Shown here: piece by piece, positions 5,649 through 33,789 of the stretch | Position numbering within the stretch: the stretch's first letter is position 1 | How the letters are laid out: every line of letters begins with the position of its first letter | DNA from: Chryseobacterium sp. | GTDB lineage: Bacteria; Bacteroidota; Bacteroidia; Flavobacteriales; Weeksellaceae | Assembly (NCBI GenBank): GCA_027492795.1 | Contig: JAPUEB010000020.1 | Location: 1 to 64,000 of the forward strand | Direction: 5' to 3' | Length of the DNA stretch: 64,000 nt | The notes under the pieces: model-generated | What the model saw: the letters and a program-made list of their open reading frames with translations, nothing else | Told to the model about the DNA's origin: nothing | Databases searched by the model: none | Program-made: the position numbers and the translations under genes

Positions 5649-6614
5649 TTAAGATTTTTCCAATTTTACTTTTAGGTTCTTAATCATATCTTTCGTCATC
5701 TCCGAAATATCAAAATCATAGGACAATCCCCAATCTTTTTTCGCTACAGAATCATCTATCGAAGCTGGCCAAGAATCTGCAATTGCCTGTCGAAAATCCG
5801 GTTGATAATCAATTTCAAATTCTGGAATTTCCTTCTTAATTTCTTCAGCCAATTCTTTCGGTGTGAAAGACATTCCACCCAAATTGTAAGACGAACGAAC
5901 CGTTAAACTTTCTTTTGGAGCCTCCATTAATTTAAGAGTTGCATTAATCGCATCATCCATATACAACATCGGCATCGCCGTATTTTCAGAAATAAAACTG
6001 GTGTATTTTCCTTCTTCGATGGCTTCGTAATAAATTTCTACCGCATAATCTGTTGTTCCGCCTCCTGCAGGAGTTTTCCAAGAAATCAAGCCTGGATAAC
6101 GGATGCTGCGAACATCTACTCCATATTTATCAAAATAATATTCGCACCATTTTTCGCCTGCCAATTTTGAAATTCCATAAACTGTTGTTGGATTCAAAAC
6201 AACATCCTGTCCAACATTATTTTTCGGAATTCCTTTTCCAAAAACGGCGATAGAGCTTGGCCAAAAAATCTTCTGAATGAGCCCTTCTTTAGCCATTTCG
6301 CAAAAATGTAAAAGCGGTTCTACATTCAGTTTCCAAGCAAAAAGAGGTTGTTTTTCTGAAGTTCCGGAAAGCAGGGAAGCAAGATGATAAACCGTCGTAA
6401 TGCCGTAGTCGCTAATCACCTGTCTAACCAACTGTGTATTAGTAACATCCATCCTTTCGTAATACTTTGCAGGAGTGGTTTTTTTGTCCCATCTTTCCAA
6501 TCCGGACGCGACAACGTTTTCTTCACCGTGAATTTCAATTAATCTCTTCGTCAGTTCGGTTCCGATTTGTCCTAAAGCTCCTGTAATCAGTATTTTTTCT
6601 GTGGATGTTGCCAT
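5649..6614 (-). CDS. L-threonine 3-dehydrogenase of the short-chain epimerase type
   Basis: This NAD-dependent enzyme oxidises L-threonine to 2-amino-3-oxobutyrate. The Rossmann motif ITGALGQIGTEL is at the N-terminus, the YxxxK pair is in TVYGISKLAGEKW, and RYPGLISWKTP and GGGTTDYAVEIYYEAI are hallmarks of the SDR-type threonine dehydrogenase known from Flavobacterium. I start it at the ATG at 6614 (321 residues). The longer frame reaching 6644 begins inside the -7 box at 6642-6649, so that Met cannot be transcribed from this promoter. Confidence 0.88.
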   Translation of the reverse strand: MATSTEKILITGALGQIGTELTKRLIEIHGEENVVASGLERWDKKTTPAKYYERMDVTNTQLVRQVISDYGITTVYHLASLLSGTSEKQPLFAWKLNVEPLLHFCEMAKEGLIQKIFWPSSIAVFGKGIPKNNVGQDVVLNPTTVYGISKLAGEKWCEYYFDKYGVDVRSIRYPGLISWKTPAGGGTTDYAVEIYYEAIEEGKYTSFISENTAMPMLYMDDAINATLKLMEAPKESLTVRSSYNLGGMSFTPKELAEEIKKEIPEFEIDYQPDFRQAIADSWPASIDDSVAKKDWGLSYDFDISEMTKDMIKNLKVKLEKS

Positions 6615-6641
6615 ATAACCAATTTTTAGTTTTGAATTGAG

Positions 6642-6649
6642 CAAATTTA
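6642..6649 (-). promoter_or_regulatory. -7 box for threonine dehydrogenase
   Basis: The minus strand reads TAAATTTG. It overlaps the upstream in-frame ATG at 6642-6644 and therefore supports the downstream start at 6614. Confidence 0.55.
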
Positions 6650-6681
6650 GAAAATTTGGAATGGTTTAGAAAACAAATCTG

Positions 6682-6689
6682 TAATTTTG
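6682..6689 (+). promoter_or_regulatory. -7 box for gamma-glutamyltransferase
   Basis: TAATTTTG matches TAnnTTTG, 15 bp before the ATG at 6705 and divergent from the 6642-6649 box. Confidence 0.5.
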
Positions 6690-6704
6690 ATAAAATTTTA
6701 AAAA

Positions 6705-8390
6705 ATGAAGAAGTTTTTATTTCTATTCCTAATATTCTCGCAGTTTACCTTCGCACAATTTACGGATTACAATATTTTAAAAGAAGTAAAAGTGAGAAAC
6801 AAGGGAGTTATAGTTTCTGCGCATCCTTTGGCAAGTGAAGCCGGCGCAAAAATTCTGAAAATGGGTGGAAATGCTTATGATGCGATTGTTGCAACACAAT
6901 ATGCACTCACCGTCGTTTATCCACAAGCTGGAAATATTGGTGGTGGCGGATTTTTGGTCGGCGTGAAAAATAACGGCGAAAAATTCACGATAGATTACCG
7001 CGAAACTGCTCCGGAAAAGTCTTCGCGGGATATGTATCTGGATAAAAACGGAAAAGCAAACACCGATTTGTCGCAAAACGGAAGATTAGCTGTTGGAATT
7101 CCGGGTTCTGTTGCGGGTTTTTATGCTACTTTAAAATATTGTAAACTTCCTATGAATCAATTGATTCAACCGGCGATTGATATGGCTGAACAAGGTTTTT
7201 CAATTACGGAAAGAGAAGCGAATTTGTTGAATTCTTTGCGTGATGAATTTTTAAAACACAATAAAAATAAAACCGCTTTTGTAAAATCAGAAAAATGGAA
7301 AGCTGGAGATTTGTTGGTTCAAAAAGAATTGGCTGAAACGCTAAAATTAATTCAGAAAAATGGAGAAAAGGGCTTTTATGAAGGAAAAACGGCTGAACTT
7401 ATCGTTGCTGAAATGAAACGCGGTAATGGAATTATTTCTTTAAAAGATTTGAAAAATTACAAAGCAGTTTCACGAAAACCAATATCATTTGATTATAAGG
7501 GACAAGAAATTGTTTCAATGCCCTTGCCTTCTTCCGGCGGAATTTTGTTGGCTCAAATGCTGAAAATGAGCAGTTTTGAAAATTTAGAAAACTATCAGCA
7601 AAACTCGACAGAAGCCGTGCAAATTATGACGGAAGCAGAACGTCGCGCTTTTGCAGACCGTGCAGAATTTATGGGCGATCCGAATTTTATCAATGATAAA
7701 ACCGAAATGCTGATTTCTGAAGAATATTTGAAAAACCGTTGGAAATCTTTCAATAAAAATAAAACAACGCCAAGTTCAGAAGTTGGTAAAATCATCAAAC
7801 CAATGAACGAAAGTACTGAAACTACACATATTTCAGTGGTGGACAAAGATGGAAACGCAGCGGCTGTAACCACCACATTGAATGGACTTTATGGAAGCAA
7901 AGTTGTGGTTTCGGGAGCTGGATTTTTCCTGAATAACGAAATGGACGATTTTTCTATAAAACCGGGTGTTCCTAATATGTTTGGCGCAGTTGGTGGCGAA
8001 GCCAACAAAATTGAACCTAGAAAAAGAATGCTGTCATCAATGACACCAACAATTGTTTTGAAAAACAACAAACCTTACATCATCGTTGGAACTCCGGGAG
8101 GAACTACGATTCCGACTTCGGTTTATCAAAGTATTGTGAATGTTATTGATTTCAAATTATCACCAAATATGGCGGTAAATGCACCCAAATTTCATCATCA
8201 ATGGCTCCCTGAAGTGGTTGCAGTTGAGAAAAATTTCCCTGAAATCACTATTTCCAATTTGGAAAAATTAGGCTATAAAATTGAAAAATGGAACCAAATT
8301 GGAAGAACGGAACTCATTTTAATTGATGAGAAAGGAAATATTACGGGTGTTGCAGACGGTCGCGGCGATGATTCTGTCGCTGTGGAGTAA
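6705..8390 (+). CDS. ggt: Gamma-glutamyltransferase
   Basis: The 561-residue periplasmic Ntn-hydrolase cleaves glutathione and other gamma-glutamyl compounds. A signal peptide (residues 1-17, ending TFAQ) precedes the large-subunit domain with the Gly-rich stretch NIGGGGF. The autoprocessing site and nucleophile is T373 in TTHISVVDKDGNA, followed by the small-subunit signatures FFLNNEMDDFS, MLSSMTPTIV and GTPGGTTI. Length is normal for the family. It has its own promoter and lies opposite the SRPBCC gene downstream. Confidence 0.95.
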   Translation: MKKFLFLFLIFSQFTFAQFTDYNILKEVKVRNKGVIVSAHPLASEAGAKILKMGGNAYDAIVATQYALTVVYPQAGNIGGGGFLVGVKNNGEKFTIDYRETAPEKSSRDMYLDKNGKANTDLSQNGRLAVGIPGSVAGFYATLKYCKLPMNQLIQPAIDMAEQGFSITEREANLLNSLRDEFLKHNKNKTAFVKSEKWKAGDLLVQKELAETLKLIQKNGEKGFYEGKTAELIVAEMKRGNGIISLKDLKNYKAVSRKPISFDYKGQEIVSMPLPSSGGILLAQMLKMSSFENLENYQQNSTEAVQIMTEAERRAFADRAEFMGDPNFINDKTEMLISEEYLKNRWKSFNKNKTTPSSEVGKIIKPMNESTETTHISVVDKDGNAAAVTTTLNGLYGSKVVVSGAGFFLNNEMDDFSIKPGVPNMFGAVGGEANKIEPRKRMLSSMTPTIVLKNNKPYIIVGTPGGTTIPTSVYQSIVNVIDFKLSPNMAVNAPKFHHQWLPEVVAVEKNFPEITISNLEKLGYKIEKWNQIGRTELILIDEKGNITGVADGRGDDSVAVE

Positions 8391-23064: not shown

Positions 23065-25152
23065 TTACCAAATTTTTATCCTCTCAGCAGGTGCTTTATA
23101 CATTTTGTCGCCTGGTTTAATATCGAATGCGTTGTGAAATGCATCAATATTCAGAAGCGGGCCGAAAGCGCGGTAAAATCCTGGAGAATGAGGATCTGTT
23201 TTTACTTGGTTTACGGTGTAAGCATCTGTTGCTTTGCTGCGCCAAATGGTTGCCCAACTTAAGAAAAATCGTTGGCTCTGATTGTAACCACTGATTAATC
23301 CAGGATTTCCATGATCTTTAAGATACATTTGGAGTGCTTCGTAAGCAACAGCAACACCACCCAAATCGCCGATATTTTCACCAGAAGTAAATTTTCCGTT
23401 CACGAAACTGCCTTTTACAGGTTCGTATTGATCGTATTGTGCGGCAAGTTGTCCCACTTTTGCGTCGAAATTCTTTCTATCGCTGTCTGTCCACCAGTTT
23501 TTCAAATTTCCGTCGCCGTCAAAACGGGAACCGCCATCATCGAAACCATGAGAAATTTCGTGACCGATTACGCCACCAATTCCGCCAAAATTTACGGCTG
23601 GATCTGCTTTAAAATTGAAAAACGGAGGTTGCAAAATAGCGGCAGGAAAAACAATTTCGTTGTTGGAGGAGTTGTAATAGGCATTTACAGTTTGCGGCGA
23701 CATTCCCCATTCGGTTTTATCTACTGGTTTTCCTATTTTTTCAAGATTTTTTTGATAATTCCACGCGGTAACATTTTGTAGATTTCCGTAAAGTGTTCCG
23801 CCGTTTTGTGGAGAGGTCATTTGCAGTTTCGAATAATCTTTCCAAGTGTCTGGATATGCGATTTTCACGGAAAATTTCGCCAATTTATCCTGAGCTTTTA
23901 CTTTGGTTTCGGGCGACATCCAGTCTAATCCGTCAATTCTTTTTGCAAATGCTTTTCGGATGTAGGAAATGTAGGTTTCCATCTGCGTTTTGGCTTCTGC
24001 AGGGAAATATTTGTCCACATACAATTTCCCAAAAGCTTCACCCAAAACGCCGTTAATCATCGAAAGTCCGCGTTTGTCCATAGAACGTTGTTCCTTTTGA
24101 CCTTGCAAATATTTCGAGTAAAAATCAAAATTCAAATCGTCCATTTCTTTGTTCAAACTTCCTAAATTTCCGCGCAGCATGTGATATTTCATATAATCTT
24201 TCAGCAAAGGAAGATTTTTGGAGTTGATGAAACTGTCCATATTTTGATAGTATTTTAGCTCGCCCAAAATCACGCGGTCGGTATTTACGCCAACAGAAGT
24301 AAGATAATTTGGCATGTTAACATTTTTTACCAAAGAATTTAATTCAGCAGTAGTTTTCGGGTTGTAGCGAAGATTTGCGTCTCTTCCTTGTTCGTTGGTC
24401 AATAGATAATTTGCCAATTTATTTTCAAAATTTACCACATTTTCCGCGGCTTGATTGGCGTTTTTATACCCTAAGACCGTAAACAATTTGGTTGCAAAAT
24501 TTTTATATTCTGCTAAAGTTTTCGTGTTGGCTTCGTTTTGTTTCTGATAATAATCTTTACCCAAACCAAGAGCGGGACCACCCAAATAAATGGCGTTCAT
24601 CACCGAATTTTTCATATCTGCACGAACCGACCAAGAATAAAATGGATTTTTACCGGTTTTTGTAGCATCAATCAAGTAATTCTGGAAATCTGCAACCGAT
24701 TTTATGGCATCAATTTTTGCTAAATCTGCCTTAATTGGATTAATTCCGTCCGCATTTCTCTTGTCCCAATCCACAAAACTTCCATAAAGTGCCTGAATTT
24801 TTTGACCTTCGGAACCCTGTTGAAACTGATCCGTCAAAAGTTTATTCATAATTTCCAGCGAAGCATTATCGGTATCTTCACGAAGTTTGTCGAAGGAACC
24901 CCATCTTGTTTTATCGGAAGGAATTTGCGTGGTTTTCATCCAATTTCCGTTCACATAGCTGAAAAAATCGTCTTGTGGACGAACGGATTTATCAAAATAA
25001 TTCAGTTGTAAACCATTTCCTGGGATTTCCACCAATTTTGGAGGAACAGATTGTTGAGTTTCTGCTGTTGCTGTTGCAGTTTTTGTAGATGAACAGGAAT
25101 TAAGAAAAACAATTCCTGAAAATGCGAGAATGCTTATTGTTATTTTTTTCAT
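23065..25152 (-). CDS. M13-family zinc metallopeptidase lipoprotein, paralogue 1
   Basis: The 695-residue neprilysin-like (PepO) enzyme is exported as a lipoprotein (SGIVFLNSCSS, Cys at about residue 19). The N-terminal M13 domain starts RPQDDFFSYVNGNWMKTTQIP. The zinc site is VIGHEISHGFDDGG with the third ligand in GENIGDLGGVAVAYEAL, and the C-terminus ends in the typical APAERIKIW. It hydrolyses peptides at the cell envelope. A close paralogue lies at 31672-33756 on the same strand. Confidence 0.93.
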   Translation of the reverse strand: MKKITISILAFSGIVFLNSCSSTKTATATAETQQSVPPKLVEIPGNGLQLNYFDKSVRPQDDFFSYVNGNWMKTTQIPSDKTRWGSFDKLREDTDNASLEIMNKLLTDQFQQGSEGQKIQALYGSFVDWDKRNADGINPIKADLAKIDAIKSVADFQNYLIDATKTGKNPFYSWSVRADMKNSVMNAIYLGGPALGLGKDYYQKQNEANTKTLAEYKNFATKLFTVLGYKNANQAAENVVNFENKLANYLLTNEQGRDANLRYNPKTTAELNSLVKNVNMPNYLTSVGVNTDRVILGELKYYQNMDSFINSKNLPLLKDYMKYHMLRGNLGSLNKEMDDLNFDFYSKYLQGQKEQRSMDKRGLSMINGVLGEAFGKLYVDKYFPAEAKTQMETYISYIRKAFAKRIDGLDWMSPETKVKAQDKLAKFSVKIAYPDTWKDYSKLQMTSPQNGGTLYGNLQNVTAWNYQKNLEKIGKPVDKTEWGMSPQTVNAYYNSSNNEIVFPAAILQPPFFNFKADPAVNFGGIGGVIGHEISHGFDDGGSRFDGDGNLKNWWTDSDRKNFDAKVGQLAAQYDQYEPVKGSFVNGKFTSGENIGDLGGVAVAYEALQMYLKDHGNPGLISGYNQSQRFFLSWATIWRSKATDAYTVNQVKTDPHSPGFYRAFGPLLNIDAFHNAFDIKPGDKMYKAPAERIKIW

Positions 25153-25497
25153 ATTAAAAAAGTGAATTTCTCAAATATAATGAATTTTGCTTGAATGTTA
25201 CAATCAAAATTTTCTTTCATTTAACTTCCAAAATAACAATAGACATACAGCTTTCAATTTATTTTTCAAAAATTGCAAAAGTTTCTTTATGTAGCAACCA
25301 TTTCTTAAAGATTTGTTTCATTGTTTTGAATGAGATATGAACTGAATATTAAAATTTAATGTATCCCTAATATTAGGGATTTATTTTTTTTCGTAAAAAC
25401 ATTAAATTTGAAGAAAATATCACACAAAAGGGTAATTGCGGCGAATATAAAATCGGAATACCTTTACTGGATGAAATAACCAAAAAAAAACAATATT
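25153..25497. other. Intergenic region at the left edge of the accessory segment
   Basis: It holds the -7 box of the M13 gene (TATATTTG on the minus strand, 25172-25179) and a plus-strand TAAATTTG at 25403-25410 about 88 bp before the barrel gene. Between 25430 and 25490 a short open stretch without a start codon is visible, possibly a remnant. No gene is called. Confidence 0.5.
25403..25410 (+). promoter_or_regulatory. -7 box upstream of the barrel-protein gene
   Basis: TAAATTTG matches TAnnTTTG. It would give a leader of about 80 nt before the ATG at 25498. Confidence 0.45.
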
Positions 25498-26433
25498 ATG
25501 AGAACGAAGATTTTAATTACAGGTTTGATGATGCTTTTGGCAGTGATTAGTTGGGGACAGGAAAAAATAAGCCTCAACAAAATAGATTATGGCAACTCTC
25601 AGTATATTTTTACTGAAAGCACATTAATTGCAGAATGTGATTTAGAAGGAAACAAAAATGGCAACAATGAAAGAGCTCCAATAAATGCAATTTTTGTAAT
25701 CAGTGGTAATAAGGATGACAACTACATAATTAAATTCTTGAAGTGGAAAGAAAACAAAAATAATATTTCAAACAATTTGAAGTACTATTATAAACAAATC
25801 AACCAAAACAGAAATGCCCATAACGAAAAAGTTGTACAAGAATTCAATCTTCTTACAGGGAAAGCCAATGATAAAATTTCAAATATTAGAAACAATGATA
25901 ATGAAAGTGCCGAAACAATCGAAATAATTGAAACTTACTTTCTATTAAGTAAAATAGATTTATTAACAGCGGCTTCTACTTACACTCCAATTCCAAAGTA
26001 TGAATTTGTCTTTGGTACAATTGGATATTTGGTAAGAATAAGACCAGCTACTTCAGGTTTTTCAAGCAATTGGTCTACGGATCTAAATTTAGGAATTGCT
26101 TATGGTGCAAAAGTGAATTTTAATAAAAACTGGGGAATTTCAGCTTTAGGTGGTTTGTCTTTAAGCAAAATAAAAATAGACTCTCTTTCCACAAGTCCCT
26201 CAATAAATAAAAGCATTGAAAAAGTTACGCTGTCTCCAACTGTAAATGTATTACTTAATTACAAAAATTTTTTTGTTGGATTAGGTGTTGGCTACGATTG
26301 GCTGAATCTTGATACAGAGGAATCAAAAAGATGGATCTACAATAGAAAACCATTTTATGCTTTAGGTATAGGCATAAACCTATTTTCCTCAAATAATGGT
26401 AAAGAACCAACACCAACAAACGGTAATAATTAA
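25498..26433 (+). CDS. Putative outer-membrane beta-barrel protein of unknown function
   Basis: The family is not recognised. The 311-residue product has a signal peptide (1-20, AVISWGQ) and a polar N-terminal half rich in Asn and Lys. The C-terminal half has alternating amphipathic strands (WSTDLNLGIAYGAKVNF, WGISALGGLSLSKI, NFFVGLGVGYDWLNL, FYALGIGINLF) as in small outer-membrane barrels. The first residues MRTKIL and the surrounding start region resemble those of the protease at 29321. It opens the AT-rich accessory segment. Confidence 0.65.
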   Translation: MRTKILITGLMMLLAVISWGQEKISLNKIDYGNSQYIFTESTLIAECDLEGNKNGNNERAPINAIFVISGNKDDNYIIKFLKWKENKNNISNNLKYYYKQINQNRNAHNEKVVQEFNLLTGKANDKISNIRNNDNESAETIEIIETYFLLSKIDLLTAASTYTPIPKYEFVFGTIGYLVRIRPATSGFSSNWSTDLNLGIAYGAKVNFNKNWGISALGGLSLSKIKIDSLSTSPSINKSIEKVTLSPTVNVLLNYKNFFVGLGVGYDWLNLDTEESKRWIYNRKPFYALGIGINLFSSNNGKEPTPTNGNN

Positions 26434-26521
26434 TACTTTAAAAACTATAACAACTATAAAATCTTAATTATGAACCTTATCGAAAAATTAAAACAATATA
26501 GGGTAACGTTTTTTTTTTACA

Positions 26522-26992
26522 ATGCTCTTATTAATGATAACATTTGTATTAGTTATTTTTTACTTAATTCCATATACTGATAAAAATAACCAAATACAAT
26601 ATCGTGTTGACTTAGCACATATCATATTAAGTCTTACTTTTCTATTTGCTGGTGGACTTATTGGGTTTATTTTTGCCATTCCTCGCAGGATTTCGAGTAA
26701 TGATATTGAAAATAAATTTGAGGGAAAATATATAGGTAATGACAATCTTGTTCAAATAAGTGATTGGCTTACAAAAATTCTTGTGGGTGTCGGTCTTGTT
26801 AATTTAAAAAGTTTTCCATCACAACTCAATCATTTTGCAAGTTCGTTAAGTTTTGCGTCTTCTAGTGGTTTGCCAGTAAATACAGTTATTGTTGAAATGA
26901 TTATTCTATTTTTTTCAATTGCAGGTTTTATAGTAGCATATCTATGGACTAGATTAAATTTTGTAAAAATTTTAAATAGTTCTGAAAACTAA
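26522..26992 (+). CDS. Small membrane protein with an ISDWLTK module; true N-terminus probably frameshifted
   Basis: The 156-residue product has three hydrophobic segments (residues 1-17, 29-51 and 125-146). Between them is DNLVQISDWLTKILVGVGL, a motif I have seen in varied bacterial two-to-three-helix membrane proteins of unknown role. A better start is the ATG at 26470: its frame reads MNLIEKLKQYRVTFFF and then breaks at a T10 run (26509-26518). With nine T it would join this frame as TFFFTMLLLMITF. The protein is thus about 17 residues longer, or the gene is frameshifted in this genome. Confidence 0.6.
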   Translation: MLLLMITFVLVIFYLIPYTDKNNQIQYRVDLAHIILSLTFLFAGGLIGFIFAIPRRISSNDIENKFEGKYIGNDNLVQISDWLTKILVGVGLVNLKSFPSQLNHFASSLSFASSSGLPVNTVIVEMIILFFSIAGFIVAYLWTRLNFVKILNSSEN

Positions 26993-27005
26993 ATCTCTTA
27001 AAACC

Positions 27006-27533
27006 ATGAACCCAAACATCAACATCCGTCTCGCAACGCTGCAAGATTTGCAGGGCGTTCTTGCGTTGCACGAGAAATACCTTTACCAAAACTTATCGGA
27101 TCCCGAAAAACAGAACGGCTTTATAAAGGTGCGTTACAGCGAAGATGATTTGCGAAAAATAATTGTGGCGCAGGAAATTGTGGTGGCGATTTACGAATAC
27201 AAAATCGTGGGTTATTTTTTGGTTGGGAAGAAAAGTGATTCTCCAAATTTATTACATCAAAAAAATAGAGCATCTCGTTTGGCAAATGAAATGGTAATAC
27301 CTTTTGATAAAGTTGGTTATGGTTGCCAAATATGTTTAGATATGAATTATAGAAATTTAGGTTTGTCAAGACCAATGGTAGATGTTTTAATTGAAAATGT
27401 GAACGATAAATATAAAATATTGTTAAGCACAATTTCTCCCGAAAACAAAATCTCGATAATGAACAGCACTTCTGTTGGATGGCATCCATTAAATAATCTT
27501 GAAATACCCAACTATTACATTTACAAGTTATGA
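27006..27533 (+). CDS. GNAT-family N-acetyltransferase
   Basis: The 175-residue cytoplasmic enzyme begins INIRLATLQDLQGVLALHEKY, the usual GNAT strand 1-helix 1, and carries an acetyl-CoA-binding motif A of the form CLDMNYRNLGLSRPMVDVL. The C-terminus ends in a short aromatic strand. Its stop codon overlaps the ATP-grasp start by 4 bp (ATGA), so the two are translationally coupled. In combined GNAT/ATP-grasp pathways the acetyltransferase acylates an amino group of the precursor; the acceptor here is unknown. Confidence 0.82.
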   Translation: MNPNINIRLATLQDLQGVLALHEKYLYQNLSDPEKQNGFIKVRYSEDDLRKIIVAQEIVVAIYEYKIVGYFLVGKKSDSPNLLHQKNRASRLANEMVIPFDKVGYGCQICLDMNYRNLGLSRPMVDVLIENVNDKYKILLSTISPENKISIMNSTSVGWHPLNNLEIPNYYIYKL

Positions 27534-28387
27534 GATTTTATTGTCTATATGAAGAATTATATGAAGGTGTTGATTTACGCATTGAACAACTTAAGTCCGC
27601 CTGTAAAAAACAAAATATTGAGTTTTTCGCTTTAAATAGTTTAACGCAGGATTATACCAATTTGCCTAAACTCACAAAATCCGATTTGTTATATAATTGC
27701 GCAAGAGGAAGCCAAACATTGGAAAGTATTTTACTTAATCATACTGTAACAACATTCTACAGAAAAAATCCAATGTTCAATCAAACTTATTCCAGTACGG
27801 ATTGGAGCATCCTTCACGAAAAAGCCAATCTTCTTGCTCCAAAAACCATTTTCCATTTAACAACCGATAGAAATTTACTCACAAAATATGTAGATTATCT
27901 AGGCGGTTTCCCAATCATTATCAAAGCAACTGGCGGAACCAGAGGATTTGGAACCCTAAAAATAGAAACTTGGCAAAACCTAATTTCTACCGTAGATTAT
28001 TTGGCAGGAACCAACGACAAATTTATTATGCGTGAATTTATAAAGGCAAAAAACGGTTGCAGATTGATGGTTTTGGGAAACGAAGTGATTGCAGGAGCTG
28101 ATTTTGAAATGAATAAAGAAGATTTTCGGAACGCCATTGATTTGTCGCAGGTAAAATACAAAGCGAGAATTTATCCAGAACACGTCAACAAAACCGCAAT
28201 ACAGGCAACTCATCTTGCGAATGTGGAATTGGGCGGAGTAGATTTTCTGGAAGATGAGGACGAAAATTTTTATTTGCTCGAAGTAAATTTTCCTACTGGT
28301 TTTAGCGGACTGATTGATGTTTGCAGTGTGGATATTCCTTATAAGATGGTTGAATTTTTAAAAAACAAAGCGGATGGAAAAAATTGA
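27530..28387 (+). CDS. RimK-type ATP-grasp ligase
   Basis: The 285-residue enzyme should join a carboxylate to an amine through an acyl-phosphate. The ATP-grasp fold is visible as the Gly-rich loop FPIIIKATGGTRGFGTLKI near residues 125-143, the hinge FIMREFIKAKNGCRLMVLG, and the Mg2+ site DFLEDEDENFYLLEVNFPTG, where EVN is followed by FPTG instead of the common SSPG of RimK. It is coupled at both ends: 4 bp overlap with the GNAT gene and 14 bp overlap with the hydrolase gene. No protein substrate motif is seen. Confidence 0.85.
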   Translation: MRFYCLYEELYEGVDLRIEQLKSACKKQNIEFFALNSLTQDYTNLPKLTKSDLLYNCARGSQTLESILLNHTVTTFYRKNPMFNQTYSSTDWSILHEKANLLAPKTIFHLTTDRNLLTKYVDYLGGFPIIIKATGGTRGFGTLKIETWQNLISTVDYLAGTNDKFIMREFIKAKNGCRLMVLGNEVIAGADFEMNKEDFRNAIDLSQVKYKARIYPEHVNKTAIQATHLANVELGGVDFLEDEDENFYLLEVNFPTGFSGLIDVCSVDIPYKMVEFLKNKADGKN

Positions 28388-29294
28388 ACTGATTGAAAAA
28401 ACTATTGACAAAATTGAAAACTTACTGAAAGAACAACTTCCTGAAAGTAAATACCAATTCGAGTTATACGATTTAGAAACCAATACCAAACATTTCAGAG
28501 GTTTGGATGAGCCTTTTCATTGGGGAAGTGTTTACAAATTATTTGTGGTGGCAGAAATATTGAAAATGGCGGAAGAAGGTTTGCTTGATTTGGAAGATGA
28601 GTTGATTTTGAGAAAAGAGAAATTTAAAAATGGTAGTGGAATATTAAAGTTTTTTACTCACCTTAATAAAATTAGCATTCTTGATGGTTGTAAAATGACA
28701 ATTTCAACTTCCGATAATTTATGTGCAGATGAACTATTAGAAATTGTGGGCATAACAAGATTTAATGAATTATTTAAAAAAGCGAATTTAAAAAATTCAT
28801 TTTTGTGTTATAATCTTCATGATACAGTTATAGAACTATTTTCAAAAATCAAATTTGAAAAAAGGGCATCTTTTTACCGTAGCGAAAACTTTTGCTCTCA
28901 ATTTAATCACTCTTTAGAACAACTATTGAAAAAACATTATACCAACGCAAAGGATTTAAACACGGCTTTATATTTTGTTTTGAACAAATATTTAAGTGAG
29001 AGGCACACAGAAACTTACATAGAAATTCTAAAAACGCCAACAACATACCCACGACTTGATGCATATACGATGTTTAGTCCAGTTGCAATAATTGGCAAAA
29101 GTGGTTCATTAGGATATCAAACCGCATTTAATCAATCAATTATAATTCTAGATATATATAAAGAAAAAATTTTAGGGATTGGCTCTTTTTTATTAAAAGA
29201 AAATAAATATAGAAATTATGAAGCAACCGATACTTTTGGTTTAATCGGCTTGGAGATAGCAAATTTATATGAAGAATTAGAAAATTTAAAATAA
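28374..29294 (+). CDS. Class A beta-lactamase-like serine hydrolase without signal peptide
   Basis: The 306-residue protein has the three active-site motifs of class A serine beta-lactamases and DD-peptidases in order and at roughly normal spacing: S52-V-Y-K55, S113-D-N115 and K242-S-G244. The omega-loop ExxLN with the deacylating Glu is not evident. There is no signal peptide and the N-terminus is a charged helix, so it should stay in the cytoplasm, unlike resistance enzymes. Overlap with the ATP-grasp gene suggests it acts on the product of that ligase, perhaps as a peptidase, amidase or cyclase. That role is inference. Confidence 0.8.
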   Translation: MEKIELIEKTIDKIENLLKEQLPESKYQFELYDLETNTKHFRGLDEPFHWGSVYKLFVVAEILKMAEEGLLDLEDELILRKEKFKNGSGILKFFTHLNKISILDGCKMTISTSDNLCADELLEIVGITRFNELFKKANLKNSFLCYNLHDTVIELFSKIKFEKRASFYRSENFCSQFNHSLEQLLKKHYTNAKDLNTALYFVLNKYLSERHTETYIEILKTPTTYPRLDAYTMFSPVAIIGKSGSLGYQTAFNQSIIILDIYKEKILGIGSFLLKENKYRNYEATDTFGLIGLEIANLYEELENLK

Positions 29295-29320
29295 ATATTA
29301 ACCTTAAAAATTTTGAAATT

Positions 29321-30125
29321 ATGAGAACAAAGATTTTATTATTAGTCTTTTTTAGTTTGCAATTATTTTCTCAAACAATTGATAGAACGAAGTTATGCAG
29401 GTTTTGCAAATGTAATGAACAATTATGTGGACCTTGGAATAAAATTGATTCAGTTGAAATAATTTCTAATGAGAAAACAGAAATACAACCTTTCAATTAC
29501 ATATTACATATTGAAACGAAAGGTTCCTTTAATCAATTGGATTATGGAACTGTATCCTTTATTAATGAAAATAATTTGATTACGGCAAAACATGTTGTAT
29601 CAAAAATTTTGAAGGGCATAAAACTTTCTAAAACAGGTAAAGGAAATGATGAATGGATTACATTTGAAAAAAATGATTTCAAAGTGTCAAAATATAAATA
29701 TGCAGACATAGCAGTAGTAAAACTATTAAACAAAAATAAAATTGAAAAATTGTACGCAGGTAATTTTAAAATTAAACCCTTAAATAGTTTTAAAGTTGAA
29801 AATTTGAATAATAAGACTATTTATTTATCTGGATATCCATGCTATTTTGCTGACTTAGAAGAAAAACATGATAATCTAATAAATAGAAAAACAAATTATA
29901 AAAATTTAAATTTATCTAAAGAAAACTATATTAATTACAAAAATGTTTACTTGTACTGGAGATAGCGGTGCGCCTCTTTGGTTAAAAGATAACAATGATT
30001 TTTTTATTATTGGTATCCATCATGGTGGTGGCAAAGATGGAAAATTTTATGATAATTCTAATATTTCTGTTAAAATCAATGATCAAATTGTAAATTGGAT
30101 AAATTCAATTATAAAAGACAAATAG
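29321..30125 (+). pseudogene. Trypsin-like serine protease, frameshifted
   Basis: The first frame (29321-29965, 214 residues) has a signal peptide (FSLQLFSQ), a Cys-rich stretch LCRFCKCNEQLCGPW, the catalytic His in ITAKHVV (H91) and Asp in YADIAVVKL (D129). It then ends YLYWR. The catalytic Ser motif CTGDSGAPLW lies in the next frame (29943-30125), which continues IGIHHGGG to the end of the domain. Removing one A from the A5 run at 29938-29942 restores one open frame of about 267 residues. The break may be a real inactivating mutation, a sequencing error or, less likely, programmed frameshifting. Confidence 0.75.
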
Positions 30126-30159
30126 ATATGATTTGTAAAATATTTTCAGAAAAATAATA

Positions 30160-31023
30160 ATGAAAATCCTCCTGCTCATTCTTCTGCTGGTTATTATGAA
30201 CATCAGCATCGAGCAACTCACCAACCTGAAAATTTCGGGTGCAGAAATTTTGTTTATCCGCGCCGTGTTCAATTTCGGGTTGGCTGTTTTGGTTGCTGTA
30301 AAAAACAGAGAAACCATTATTCCCCAAAAACCAAAATTACAAATCGGCACTTTTCTGCTTTTCGGTTTGGGAATGTTGCTTAATTTTTCGGCATACCAAT
30401 ACATTTCCGCAGGTTCCGTAAGTACGTTGCAAAGACTGGATATTCCTTTGCTGGTTTTGGTTTCGTTTTTATATTCTCCTTTCAATGGCAGAAAGGGATT
30501 TTTGGCAGTCTTATCTTTTTTGGTGGTGGGTTTGATGATTTTTTATAGTCGCAACGCGCAAGAAAATGTTTTGGGATATGTTTTAATTATTTTCAGCGTT
30601 ATAGTTTTAGTCATCAATACTTTGTTGCAGAAAAAAATTGCGGTAAAGGAAAATATCGCAACCATAATGGCGGTGGTAAGTTTGAGTTCGCTTTTTTGGG
30701 GCGGAATAAGATGTTGGCAATCCGGCGCCGATTTTCAGAAAATTACTCCGATGATTTTGGGAATCATTTTTGGTTTGGCGGTCATCAACCTCATCATTTT
30801 TTATTTGGTAAACGAACTCTACAAAAAATATCCCGCAGAATTTGTGCGTTATCCCTATTTAATTTCCGCTTTTGCGATAATGATTGTGGAAATGCTCATC
30901 AAACAGAAATGGGAAACACCAGTCGTCATTTTTGGAAATATCGCCATTTTAATAATCATCACTTTTTTAGTGGGCAACAAATCTAAAAATCCGTTAACTT
31001 ACTTTAGAACACATATAAAATGA
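30160..31023 (+). CDS. EamA/DMT-family transporter
   Basis: The 287-residue inner-membrane protein has about ten hydrophobic helices in two halves. The EamA signature SGAEILFIRAVFNFGLAVLV lies near residues 25-45 and YQYISAGSVSTLQRLDIPLLVL near 85-105. The family exports amino acids, nucleotides or small metabolites. It follows the metabolite cassette on the same strand and overlaps the next gene by 4 bp. It could export the product of the GNAT/ATP-grasp cassette. Confidence 0.85.
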   Translation: MKILLLILLLVIMNISIEQLTNLKISGAEILFIRAVFNFGLAVLVAVKNRETIIPQKPKLQIGTFLLFGLGMLLNFSAYQYISAGSVSTLQRLDIPLLVLVSFLYSPFNGRKGFLAVLSFLVVGLMIFYSRNAQENVLGYVLIIFSVIVLVINTLLQKKIAVKENIATIMAVVSLSSLFWGGIRCWQSGADFQKITPMILGIIFGLAVINLIIFYLVNELYKKYPAEFVRYPYLISAFAIMIVEMLIKQKWETPVVIFGNIAILIIITFLVGNKSKNPLTYFRTHIK

Positions 31024-31589
31024 ATAAACTTTTCGCAATTCTCACCCTATTCACAATCTCACTTTTCTCCGCACAAACCGCAGAAATACTCAGCAATCAA
31101 TTAAATATCAGAGGTTACTACATTCCCCTGAAAATCGTTTTGCAAAAACCCCATATCTGCAATCCGATTATGCTGAGCAACAATTTTGAGATTAATTTTA
31201 AGGATTCAAACATCATCATCGAGTTTGATGAAGGTTCAGAATTTCCAGACGAAAGAAAACACATCAAATATGCTTTCGACCTTTTGAAAGTTGATAGCAT
31301 CGGAAAAGGCGGAACACAAGTTTACGAAATCAGTAAATATGATAACGTATCAGAATTGATCATCTTAAGCGAATCCATCAGATTTTACCTCCCTGAAAAA
31401 GACAAGGCAAAAGAAGAAATCACCGATTATAAAGGAAATAAAAAAACTGAATTGCTAGATTTCGTGGATTTACAAATACTCCCAACTGAAAATTATTCTA
31501 CAGAACCTTTTGAAGAACGGAAAATTGTAAAAAATTTTCAACAATTAATCACCGACTTAAAAAAATACGCAATTTCTCAAAGCAAATAA
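31020..31589 (+). CDS. Secreted protein of unknown function
   Basis: The family is not recognised. The 189-residue product has a signal peptide (1-18, ISLFSAQT) and no other membrane segment. The mature part is mixed alpha/beta and rich in Lys, Glu and Ile, with no Cys-based lipobox and no evident catalytic motif. A 4-bp overlap with the EamA transporter indicates co-translation. It ends the plus-strand run; a palindromic repeat and the second M13 gene follow. Confidence 0.65.
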   Translation: MNKLFAILTLFTISLFSAQTAEILSNQLNIRGYYIPLKIVLQKPHICNPIMLSNNFEINFKDSNIIIEFDEGSEFPDERKHIKYAFDLLKVDSIGKGGTQVYEISKYDNVSELIILSESIRFYLPEKDKAKEEITDYKGNKKTELLDFVDLQILPTENYSTEPFEERKIVKNFQQLITDLKKYAISQSK

Positions 31590-31620
31590 ATTGTCCTCTT
31601 TTTAAAAAAAAAAACAAAAA

Positions 31621-31671: not shown

Positions 31672-33756
31672 TTACCAAATTTTTATCCTTTCTTCCGGCT
31701 TCTTATAAAGTTTATCCCCTTCTTTCACCTCAAACGCTTTATAGAAAGCATCGGTGTTTACAAGCGGACCAAAAGCTCTGTATAAACCTGGAGCGTGTTC
31801 GTTGGTTTTGATTTGGTTGATGAGTGCGGCTTCTTTCTGCAAAGTTCTCCAAACAGTTGCCCAACTTAGGAAAAATCTTTGGTCTTGCGTGTAACCGCTG
31901 ATTAACCCTGGATTTCCGTGGTCTTTTAGATACATTTGAAGCGCGTCAAAAGAAATATTCACACCGCCTAAGTCTGCAATATTTTCACCGTTGGTAAATT
32001 CGCCGTTTACAAAGGTTCCTTTCACGGGTTCGTACGTGCTGTATTGCGCTGCGAGGGATTTTGTGGCTTTTTCGAAGTTGGCTTTGTCGTCTTTTGTCCA
32101 CCAATCTACCAAGTTTCCATCGGCATCGAATTGCGCTCCAGAATCGTCGAAACCGTGCGTCATTTCGTGACCGATTACGGCACCAATTCCACCAAAATTA
32201 ATCGCTGCATCCGCTTTTGGATTAAAAAATGGCGGCTGCAAAATTGCGGCAGGAAAAACGATTTCGTTATTTACCGGATTGTAGTAGGCGTTCACGGTTT
32301 GTGGCGTCATTCCCCATTCTTCACGATCGAAAGGTTTTCCAACTTTTTCAAGGTCTTTTCCATATTGCCAACTTGAAATATTTTGAAGGTTTTTATAAAG
32401 TGTCCCACCATTTTCTGATGATGAAATCTCTAGTTTCGAGTAATCTTTCCATTTGTCCGGATAAGCCACTTTCACCGTAAATTTGTTGAGCTTGTTCAGG
32501 GCTTTTTCTTTTGTTACGGAAGACATCCAATCCAAATTATTGATGTGGTGTGCAAAACTTTTTTTCAAATATCCTATCAGTTCCACCATTTGCGCTTTGG
32601 CTTCAGCAGGAAAATATTTTTCTACATACAGCTTTCCGAATGCTTCACCCAAGCTTCCGTCGATAAGTTCGAATGCACGCTTGTTTTGCGCTCTCTGCTC
32701 TTGCTGTCCGCGAAGATATTTTCCGTAAAAATTAAATTTTTTAGCGTCCAAATCGCTGGTAAGATAACTTGCGCTGCCCGAAAGAAGATGATATTTCATA
32801 TAGTCTTTTAGCACCGGAAGATTTTTAGCGTTGATTAATTGGTCGAAATTTTTATAAAAATTGAGCTCACCTACGATTACGCGGTCTGTATTTACGCCTA
32901 CTTTACTTAAAAAATCAGGAATATTTACACTTTTTACGGTGGACTTCAGTTGAGACATTGTAAAAGGATTATATTGAAGCGTTGCATCACGAATTTGCTC
33001 GTTCGTAAGGTAAGTTTGAGCGATAGATTTTTCAAAATTTACAATATTTTGCGCCGTCACTGCCGAATTTTTATATCCCAAAACATCAAGTATTGATGCT
33101 ACATATTTGGTGTATTCCGATAAAGTTTCGGTGTTTTTGGGGTTCACTTTTTGGTAATAGTCCCTTCCCAAACCAAGCGAAGGATTTCCGAGATAAACCG
33201 CATTCATCTTGGAGTCTTTCAAATCGGAATAAACGCCCCATCCATAAAGAAGATTATTGCCTTCGGGAGTGGCTTCTACCATATATTTCTGCAAATCTGC
33301 AACGGATTTTATAGCGTCAATTTTTGCCAAATCATTTTTTATTGGATTTATTCCGTCTGCATTTCGCTTGTTCATATCCATATAAGTGGCATACAAATCC
33401 TGAATTTTTTTACCTTCGCTTCCTGCTGCAAATTTGTCGTTCAGTAGTGAATTCAAAATCGTCATCGAGTTGTTGTCGGTATCTTCCGCCAATTTGTTGA
33501 AACTTCCCCAAGTAGATTTATCCGCAGGAATTTTTGCGGTTTTCATCCAGCTTCCATTCACAAAATTATAAAAATCATCTTGCGGACGAACGGTTTTGTC
33601 CATCGCAGTAAGGTCGAGACCATTTTCAGGGTTTACTTTCACGGTTTCCATTGGTGGTGGCGGTGTTTCGGTTTTTGTGGCAACGGTTTTTGTTGCACAG
33701 GAATTCAGCGCGATTATTCCGGCAAAAGCCAAAACGCTGATGTTGATATTTTTCAT
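31672..33756 (-). CDS. M13-family zinc metallopeptidase lipoprotein, paralogue 2
   Basis: The 694-residue product is similar along its whole length to the enzyme at 23065-25152. It has lipobox IIALNSCA, RPQDDFYNFVNGSWMKTAKIP, zinc motif VIGHEMTHGFDDSG, GENIADLGGVNISFDAL and C-terminal KPEERIKIW. I start at 33756 (MKNINISVLAF), which gives a standard lipoprotein signal; the frame upstream adds only MYF. Both copies look intact, so it is a duplicated pair, now separated by about 6.5 kb of oppositely oriented genes. Confidence 0.93.
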   Translation of the reverse strand: MKNINISVLAFAGIIALNSCATKTVATKTETPPPPMETVKVNPENGLDLTAMDKTVRPQDDFYNFVNGSWMKTAKIPADKSTWGSFNKLAEDTDNNSMTILNSLLNDKFAAGSEGKKIQDLYATYMDMNKRNADGINPIKNDLAKIDAIKSVADLQKYMVEATPEGNNLLYGWGVYSDLKDSKMNAVYLGNPSLGLGRDYYQKVNPKNTETLSEYTKYVASILDVLGYKNSAVTAQNIVNFEKSIAQTYLTNEQIRDATLQYNPFTMSQLKSTVKSVNIPDFLSKVGVNTDRVIVGELNFYKNFDQLINAKNLPVLKDYMKYHLLSGSASYLTSDLDAKKFNFYGKYLRGQQEQRAQNKRAFELIDGSLGEAFGKLYVEKYFPAEAKAQMVELIGYLKKSFAHHINNLDWMSSVTKEKALNKLNKFTVKVAYPDKWKDYSKLEISSSENGGTLYKNLQNISSWQYGKDLEKVGKPFDREEWGMTPQTVNAYYNPVNNEIVFPAAILQPPFFNPKADAAINFGGIGAVIGHEMTHGFDDSGAQFDADGNLVDWWTKDDKANFEKATKSLAAQYSTYEPVKGTFVNGEFTNGENIADLGGVNISFDALQMYLKDHGNPGLISGYTQDQRFFLSWATVWRTLQKEAALINQIKTNEHAPGLYRAFGPLVNTDAFYKAFEVKEGDKLYKKPEERIKIW

Positions 33757-33789
33757 AAAATACAAATATTTGTAATTAGTTGTTCATTA

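Follow-up and report, generated by a model that had tools for sequence, protein, structure and literature searches.

The window, a 64,000-nucleotide stretch of Chryseobacterium sp. DNA, carries four genes in the order GNAT, ATP-grasp ligase, serine hydrolase and EamA-like transporter, which we read, with a probability of roughly 0.45, as a horizontally transferable biosynthesis-and-export cassette for a small amide-linked product. The same order, likewise on one strand, is found on L014, a contig binned as Acidobacteria, and the ligase and hydrolase are shown to be under purifying selection by window/L014 dN/dS values of roughly 0.09 and 0.15, which come from a Nei-Gojobori-type script and are rough, synonymous sites being near saturation (pS 0.73). 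Because the order recurs in another phylum and both core enzymes are under purifying selection, the arrangement appears to go beyond chance, and the initial annotation, which had treated the first three genes as a real unit, is borne out on this point. By the same comparison the block as a whole looks like a transferable cassette. The features of the locus are given below.

25490..31600 (ends approximate), no strand: island between two M13 peptidase genes, from comparison of the flanking M13 matches with relatives
27006..27533, + strand: GNAT-like N-acetyltransferase P0001, 175 aa, variable slot, weak match to Pfam Acetyltransf_1
27530..28387, + strand: RimK-like ATP-grasp carboxylate-amine ligase P0002, 285 aa, core gene, Pfam RimK 1.1e-21
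27923..27925, + strand: Lys132 in GGFPIIIKATGGTRGFG, which we take to be the ATP-grasp lysine, conserved in L014 and throughout the 6 rows of alignment A1
28280..28288, + strand: Glu251-Val-Asn253, the ExN of ATP-grasp, presumably metal-binding; both E251 and N253 are the same in L014 and in all 6 rows of A1
28374..29294, + strand: class A beta-lactamase/PBP-A-fold serine enzyme P0003, 306 aa, core gene, without export signal, Pfam Beta-lactamase2 1.3e-24
28527..28538, + strand: SVYK, the SxxK nucleophile motif (Ser52, Lys55), identical in L014
28710..28718, + strand: SDN (Ser113), SDG in L014
28815..28817, + strand: Leu148, aligned to the Glu166 position of class A beta-lactamases (HMMER alignment to PER-1, 1e25_A)
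29097..29105, + strand: KSG (Lys242), KTG in L014
29321..30125 (end approximate), + strand: trypsin-like serine protease reading frame with an apparent frameshift at about 29,930-29,945, Pfam Trypsin 6e-4, just under cut-off
30160..31023, + strand: EamA/DMT-like transporter P0004, 287 aa, core gene, weak Pfam EamA match
31020..31589, + strand: 189-aa protein with a signal-like N-terminus and a 4-bp overlap with the EamA-like gene, from the ORF list and hydropathy

The island measures about 6 kb. Its flanking M13 matches are 6.5 kb apart here and 345-514 bp apart in three relatives, where the two M13 peptidase genes adjoin, and since the cassette lies between genes that adjoin elsewhere the island was probably acquired horizontally. 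The first three cassette genes are intact open reading frames, and their coordinates agree with the overlaps of 4 and 14 bp reported for them earlier, from which coupled translation can be suggested.

L014 measures 9.8 kb and belongs to a metagenome bin, the binning being the basis of its phylum assignment; it holds a GNAT, a ligase (6001-6864, 66% identical to that of the window), a hydrolase (7146-8051, 52% identical) and the start of an EamA-like gene, inside which the contig ends. The flanking genes differ between the two loci. The tight packing described in the initial annotation is retained in part: the 4-bp overlap (ATGA) between GNAT and ligase is kept in L014, but the 14-bp ligase-hydrolase overlap is replaced there by a 281-bp spacer. 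The GNAT in this place is a different one, with no detectable similarity to that of the window (BLASTP E = 1.2). While the L014 protein scores 41.5 bits against Pfam Acetyltransf_1, above the gathering score of 20.7, the window protein stays below this cut-off (E 0.028, 15.1 bits). The acetyltransferase of the originally proposed trio is thus present as a GNAT-like gene, but what is conserved is a slot filled by dissimilar GNATs and not the gene itself. Since the two GNATs show no detectable relationship, the conserved core, as far as these comparisons reach, is ligase-hydrolase-EamA.

The ligase exceeds the gathering score of its Pfam model and has the ATP-grasp domain with the conserved Lys and ExN expected of the superfamily. 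Its nearest models are the amide-forming RimK, LysX and MptN, with which it has the domain and its conserved residues in common; its N-terminal part, however, aligns poorly with RimK and every equivalog cut-off is missed (77 bits against 331 for the NCBIfam RimK equivalog, 87.4 against 143.4 for rimK_fam). RimK proper, the S6 glutamate ligase, was rejected on these cut-offs. Outside the cassette, the closest relative to come up was P0005 (32% identity over residues 2-281), which lies in a YcaO/TfuA RiPP-type cluster with short ORFs bearing a K(K/R)VKGG leader.

The hydrolase, also over the gathering score of its model (PF13354), contains the SxxK, SDN and KSG motifs attributed to it at first reading and thus retains the SxxK, Ser130 and Lys234 equivalents. 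The Glu166 position was placed through the HMMER alignment to PER-1 (whole-chain E 0.0016), in which chain residue Glu145, which we take to be Glu166 in standard numbering, falls on profile position 148. Both cassette hydrolases have Leu at this position, in an omega loop where the sequence alignment is weak, and no Asp or Glu is invariant between E123 and D194 of the two. Judged by hydropathy alone, the three window proteins have neither a signal-like stretch nor a membrane-spanning one, and in the first 43 residues of the two hydrolases the maximum 19-residue mean is -0.19 and 0.10, in line with the earlier statement that the enzyme has no signal peptide. With 49.1 and 36.1 bits the hydrolases do not reach the 200-bit threshold of NCBIfam bla_class_A. 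The enzyme is probably not an ordinary beta-lactamase, and the concern that it might prove to be an exported one found no export signal and, by alignment, no Glu166 base; an ordinary secreted beta-lactamase was rejected on the same two grounds. Leu at the Glu166 position with Ser/Lys/Ser/Lys retained is instead the pattern of PBP-A (Tll2115), of class A-type fold, whose structure (2j7v) ranks with the best matches to solved proteins, but the alignment to it covers no more than about residues 26-151 of the cassette enzyme. Table 1 of PMC7514474 likewise gives Leu at this position in PBP-A, and PMC11189452 describes PBP-A as a DD-peptidase of cyanobacteria with specificity for amidated muropeptides. 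The first 47 residues of the two cassette hydrolases are 87% identical, and recent gene conversion was rejected for this segment because synonymous differences are saturated there (pS 0.95); so conserved a segment could be expected to lie at an interface or in the pocket. The KSG region (aa 228-272) is poorly conserved, at 24% identity. Structure predictions from two-row alignments were of low confidence for both core enzymes (hydrolase and ligase models, mean pLDDT 39.2 and 37.8).

The initial annotation had an EamA exporter and a secreted protein following the trio. The EamA-like gene does appear to belong to the unit: residues 2-30 of P0004 agree at 16 of 29 positions with the truncated frame that follows the hydrolase in L014, with an alignment score of 76 that none of 2000 shuffles reached, while the whole protein as a genome-search query did not return this 42-residue fragment. 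P0004 has seven hydrophobic segments over a hydropathy threshold of 1.6 and matches Pfam EamA in two stretches below the gathering score (0.0048, 17.6 bits against 28.2), and export is the direction of transport that we infer for it. The 189-aa protein, on the other hand, was found only here, in one of 88 family genomes, namely the source genome itself (L014 ends before that point).

In the proposed pathway the ATP-grasp ligase would activate a carboxylate as acyl phosphate and form an amide or dipeptide by joining it to the amine of an amino acid or of another small molecule, and the GNAT would cap an amine of the building block or of the product with an acyl group. As the two loci carry different GNATs, versions of the cassette probably differ in the cap or in its acceptor. 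The PBP-A-like enzyme may then form a cytoplasmic acyl-enzyme on Ser52, the acyl part being passed to water or to another amine so that the conjugate is trimmed, released or rearranged, and the EamA-like protein would export the product. Both the product and these reactions, an acylated-conjugate chemistry with trimming or cyclisation, are putative. In favour of a biosynthesis cassette we count the order kept in L014, the ATGA overlap kept despite GNATs that are dissimilar at the BLASTP level, the dN/dS values, the amide-forming nearest ligase models, the proximity of the L014 GNAT to amino-acid acetyltransferases, the RiPP-type cluster around P0005 and the similar set of families in the argolaphos cluster described below; against it, that there are two cassettes only, one of them on a contig that ends inside EamA, that no building-block enzyme for an unusual unit was recognised by Pfam among the eight island proteins scanned, and that the window GNAT and EamA fall under their Pfam cut-offs. 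A bolder version, which we regard as speculative and rather doubtful, is that a PBP-A-type enzyme without a signal has been relocated to the cytoplasm as an acyl-transfer step (trimming, transpeptidation or cyclisation) paired with the ligase, and that the exchangeable GNAT diversifies the exported product of a mobile, so far undescribed four-gene system. If the pathway is right, a very small transferable cassette would make and export an amide metabolite without belonging to any of the usual cluster types (NRPS, PKS, RiPP), and the beta-lactamase/PBP fold would have found a cytoplasmic use. The core enzymes are short and without membrane segments, so the question is directly testable by expression and metabolomics. 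They also advise caution in annotation, as a class A beta-lactamase-domain protein can be part of a ligase operon and have no deacylation base.

Several known systems combine similar parts. The late genes of clavulanic acid bring together in one pathway Orf12 (orf12; entry 2xep), presumably of beta-lactamase fold, the GNAT Orf14 (orf14) and ORF17 (orf17, gcaS), an ATP-grasp ligase, but these genes stand in different operons there and are accompanied by oligopeptide permeases, not EamA. A title cited in PMC6382702 calls ORF17 an ATP-dependent N-glycyl ligase. The cassette hydrolases match 2xep weakly (E 0.78 and 0.33), and clavam-forming enzymes (ceaS, bls, pah, cas) had no match among the eight island proteins. 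The 16-gene argolaphos (alp) cluster, as described in PMC8976061, resembles the cassette in combining an ATP-grasp enzyme (AlpC), two GNATs, an MFS exporter (AlpN) and a beta-lactamase-family protein (AlpP); AlpP, however, belongs to Pfam Beta-lactamase (PF00144) and not to PF13354, and phosphonate genes are not represented among the eight island proteins.

The main rival to the biosynthesis-and-export reading is detoxification, which we consider unlikely. Here the GNAT would acetylate, the ligase conjugate, the lactamase-fold enzyme open or cleave and EamA expel an amino-acid-like antimetabolite of neighbours, such as a beta-lactam amino acid or a glutamate analogue. A rare, apparently horizontally spread cassette in an island with no recognised building-block genes would suit such a role, and the nearest models of the L014 GNAT are phosphinothricin/arsinothricin amino-acid N-acetyltransferases, with scores far under the model cut-offs; the window GNAT, however, has no match to this group. 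There is also a parallel in tabtoxin producers, where, according to PMC3927611, the acetyltransferase ttr inactivates the toxin and the cluster includes the D-Ala-D-Ala-ligase-like TblF and the membrane protein TblE. Against this, the hydrolase is by alignment without the Glu166 base for class A beta-lactam turnover, and an operon with four different disposal steps would be out of the ordinary. It is less likely still that the ligase adds amino acids to the end of a peptide or protein, in a RimK-like or RiPP-like manner, for the hydrolase to remove. RimK as the nearest solved family and the leader ORFs beside P0005 point this way, but no precursor-like short ORF with the K(K/R)VKGG leader was seen by eye in the island (ORFs of at least 25 aa) or in L014 among ORFs of at least 80 aa, the RimK equivalog score is missed, and a protein tag needs no transporter.

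The resemblance to PBP-A would also fit cell-wall turnover, with the hydrolase acting on cytoplasmic muropeptides, the ligase re-ligating them and EamA moving them, yet the very patchy occurrence is at odds with a housekeeping role, the KSG region differs strongly between the copies and no muropeptide genes were recognised among the eight island proteins, which makes this reading improbable. We give even less credence to an intracellular acetyl-dipeptide osmolyte pathway like that of NAGGN (asnO-ngg), with which the cassette has acetylation and peptide ligation in common. In that pathway, as described in PMC8070244, the single protein Ngg acetylates and ligates and AsnO amidates; the cassette, by contrast, has separate overlapping GNAT and ligase genes together with a hydrolase and a transporter, and AsnO-type amidotransferases had no match among the eight island proteins. 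NAGGN synthase itself was rejected, there being neither a single Ngg-type protein nor AsnO in the island. Least probable of all is that the genes are chance neighbours without joint function, for while only two examples are at hand, the four-gene order is the same in two phyla with different flanking genes.

The cassette is rare, with two copies in all among the genomes searched. No third one appeared in 1850 genome-searches, a sum over ten cassette-query searches (each with one gene and its own threshold) of overlapping samples, so that distinct genomes are fewer. Conservation of the trio across Bacteroidota, for which a neighbourhood search had been proposed, did not show up in the sampled genomes; that the cassette is not confined to the window follows from its recurrence in L014. 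This contig was found in a genome-contig scan by two exact peptide words (DEPFHWG, DLLYNCAR), a scan that would miss diverged cassettes, in a collection that may omit the window's own genome. A single-protein scan of genome contigs with P0002, single-protein scans of viral contigs with P0003 and P0002 and alignment scans of viral contigs gave no relative, and none of the four cassette proteins was matched by PADLOC. Six weak hydrolase matches in genomes (L003, L004, L017-L020) have signal-like starts and, by eye within 1.5 kb on each side, no adjoining ATP-grasp gene. In tblastn of plasmids the window hydrolase had no match and EamA none at 1e-6; the L014 hydrolase matched a single serine hydrolase, from Aureimonas, whose annotated neighbours within 4 kb include neither a ligase nor a GNAT, and the window GNAT matched three records (22-24% identity) with, by eye, no ATP-grasp or comparable hydrolase alongside. 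The two ligase queries returned 26 and 12 plasmid records, the matches listed being below 60% identity and the annotated ones mostly rimK, and 16 and 2 phage records, which are other ATP-grasp proteins.

Between the hydrolase and EamA genes of the window, at a place where L014 has no such gene, lies the trypsin-like frame, absent from the initial annotation, whose second part, with GDSGAPLW, continues in another frame.

The three overlapping genes described in the initial annotation, with overlaps of 4 bp (GNAT/ligase) and 14 bp (ligase/hydrolase), were recovered exactly, and they lie within an island between two M13 metallopeptidase paralogs. The same gene order recurs in L014 (CALMEH010000030.1), a contig from a bin named uncultured Acidobacteria. 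The features of the two loci are:

Window
23065-25152, - strand: M13 metallopeptidase paralog, one side of the island
about 25,490-31,600: island between the M13 paralogs
27006-27533, + strand: first gene, GNAT-like; Pfam GNAT match below the curated cut-off
27530-28387, + strand: second gene, RimK-like ATP-grasp ligase (Pfam 1.1e-21)
28374-29294, + strand: third gene, hydrolase, Beta-lactamase2 (Pfam 1.3e-24)
29321 to about 30125: trypsin-like frame with a frameshift, downstream of the hydrolase; GDSGAPLW portion in a different frame
30160-31023: EamA-like protein, 287 aa, downstream of the trypsin-like frame
overlapping the EamA-like gene by 4 bp: 189-aa protein with a signal-like start
31672-33765, - strand: M13 metallopeptidase paralog, other side of the island

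L014
ATG 5498, stop 6004: GNAT
6001-6864: ligase, ATGA overlap with the GNAT gene; 66% identity to the window ligase
7146-8051: hydrolase, 52% identity to the window hydrolase
from 8358: EamA-like fragment, first 42 residues, then contig end

L014 was found by a genome_contigs scan directed at motif regions, in which one of 56 word matches encoded a relative. There the ligase and hydrolase genes, instead of overlapping by 14 bp, are separated by a 281-bp spacer. The last 29 residues of the transporter fragment are identical to window EamA residues 2-30 at 16 of 29 positions, with an alignment score of 76 against a maximum of 51 among 2000 shuffles. A whole-EamA query gave no match in this genome, as might be expected with so short a fragment, and the EamA link thus rests on these 29 residues and on position. 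Synonymous differences between the two loci are nearly saturated (pS 0.73 for both ligase and hydrolase) and the rough dN/dS is 0.09 for the ligase and 0.15 for the hydrolase, which indicates that both proteins have long been kept for function. BLASTP detects no similarity between the two GNATs (E 1.2), so a single slot in the cassette is occupied by different GNATs. That of L014 is closest to phosphinothricin/arsinothricin N-acetyltransferases, at 39.4 of 170 bits and far under the cut-offs, and matches solved structure 1vhs at 1.1e-10.

The first searches, in family to phylum samples that overlap and with a genus sample consisting of the window's genome alone, argued against conservation. 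Only the window's own genome was matched by the hydrolase query in the family (1/246 at 1e-8), by a two-row ligase profile in the class (1/345 at 1e-25) and by the EamA query in the phylum (1/148 at 1e-15). At 1e-20 the ligase query matched 2 of the 296 genomes of the order, the window's own and one with what by eye is a RimK near rpsP-/rimM-like genes. At 1e-6 the hydrolase query matched 3 of the 395 genomes of the phylum, the window's own and two with weak hits that have signal-like starts and no adjoining ligase. In the phylum of L014 five of the 297 genomes were matched by a hydrolase profile at 1e-10, namely that of L014 and four with weak hits to enzymes that have signal-like starts; in the order of its genome a ligase profile matched 2 of 119 at 1e-25, the second being P0005, a ligase relative outside the cassette. 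Going by all these searches, the cassette is rare in both phyla. Its gene order is shared with L014, but further Bacteroidota cassettes were not found in the genomes sampled.

The hydrolase carries SxxK, SDN and KSG and lacks a signal peptide, as first annotated. Both copies retain SxxK and the Ser130 and Lys234 equivalents, SDN reads SDG in L014, and no export signal was found in either. In a weak HMMER alignment (E 0.0016), Glu145 of the PER-1 chain, which we take to be Glu166 in standard numbering, falls on position 148, an invariant Leu in both cassette hydrolases; between E123 and D194 the two share no invariant acidic residue. Leu likewise occupies the Glu166 position (L158) in PBP-A, which is a DD-peptidase of the class A type (PMC7514474, PMC11189452). 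The Leu at this position and the lack of an export signal suggest that the hydrolase is probably an acyl-enzyme-forming amidase or transferase and not an ordinary beta-lactamase. The best four solved-structure matches cover parts of residues 14-180 only. Between the two loci, identity reaches 87% over the first 47 residues and is only 24% over residues 228-272, which contain KSG. A lactamase would be expected to show the opposite pattern. Beyond the sequence motifs, the tested defining features of a class A lactamase do not fit this protein.

We infer the substrates, reaction directions and export of the cassette, whose anatomy, residues, recurrence and selection are observed, as follows: the ligase would join a carboxylate and an amine into an amide, the GNAT would cap an amine, the PBP-A-like enzyme would trim or transfer via an acyl-enzyme, and EamA would export the product. 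The main rival to this biosynthesis model is a detoxification cassette, which would need the same four activities. The late clavulanic acid genes (PMC6382702) and the argolaphos cluster (PMC8976061) encode similar protein sets, as does tabtoxin in part (PMC3927611), but none of them, as described in these sources, has the cassette's set and order. Tested defining features of the NAGGN and clavulanic acid pathways do not fit either. Searches of open-licence literature for this combination returned no title or abstract concerning such a cassette, although the key amidoligase review (Iyer 2009) may describe it.

In three relatives (G010, G019 and G035) two M13 genes are adjacent on one strand; the gap between their matches is 345-514 bp, and the second match is the better one. 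In the window the matches are 6.5 kb apart, split by the island. An M13 match at E <= 1e-80 occurs in 45 of 59 genomes, own included, and relatives other than these three have one copy or scattered copies. The GC content of the island is mixed: 0.24-0.31 in four genes including the hydrolase, and 0.33-0.37 in the GNAT, ligase, EamA and 189-aa genes, with a window mean of 0.354. The adjacent M13 pair in relatives and the GC mix suggest horizontal gain of the island, with loss elsewhere a possible alternative. Pfam scans of eight island proteins gave no integrase or transposase match.

The ligase combines a RimK-type catalytic half with its own distinct N-terminal half, and the tested defining features of RimK proper do not fit it. 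P0005, its nearest relative found outside the cassette (residues 2-281, 32%, 148 bits), carries a fused 2OG-Fe(II) oxygenase domain and neighbors a YcaO-domain protein and a TfuA-related protein (231.6 bits against a cut-off of 235.2). This locus, L024 (G1159:C403, an entire 8520-bp contig), is a RiPP-type cluster that also holds a fragment resembling the end of an ABC transporter, together with five short frames with a common K(K/R)VKGG leader (KKVKGG in four, KRVKGG in one) and differing tails. No precursor with such a leader was seen in the window island.

The trypsin-like serine protease frame, which has no counterpart ahead of EamA in L014, breaks near 29,940, has a very AT-rich first part (GC 0.24) and is either a pseudogene or a sequencing error. 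Its start region (frame 29321-29965) shares 21 nt, 95% identical and encoding MRTKIL, with that of an outer-membrane-barrel-like protein (25498-26433). Elsewhere in the window's phylum, L003 by eye holds an SH3/NlpC-like protein followed by a pair of adjacent class A-like enzymes whose starts are signal-like. A class A-like serine hydrolase of Aureimonas (L026, 3968-4792), beside an ABC transporter and an M81 peptidase, may be a further case of the fold in an unusual role.
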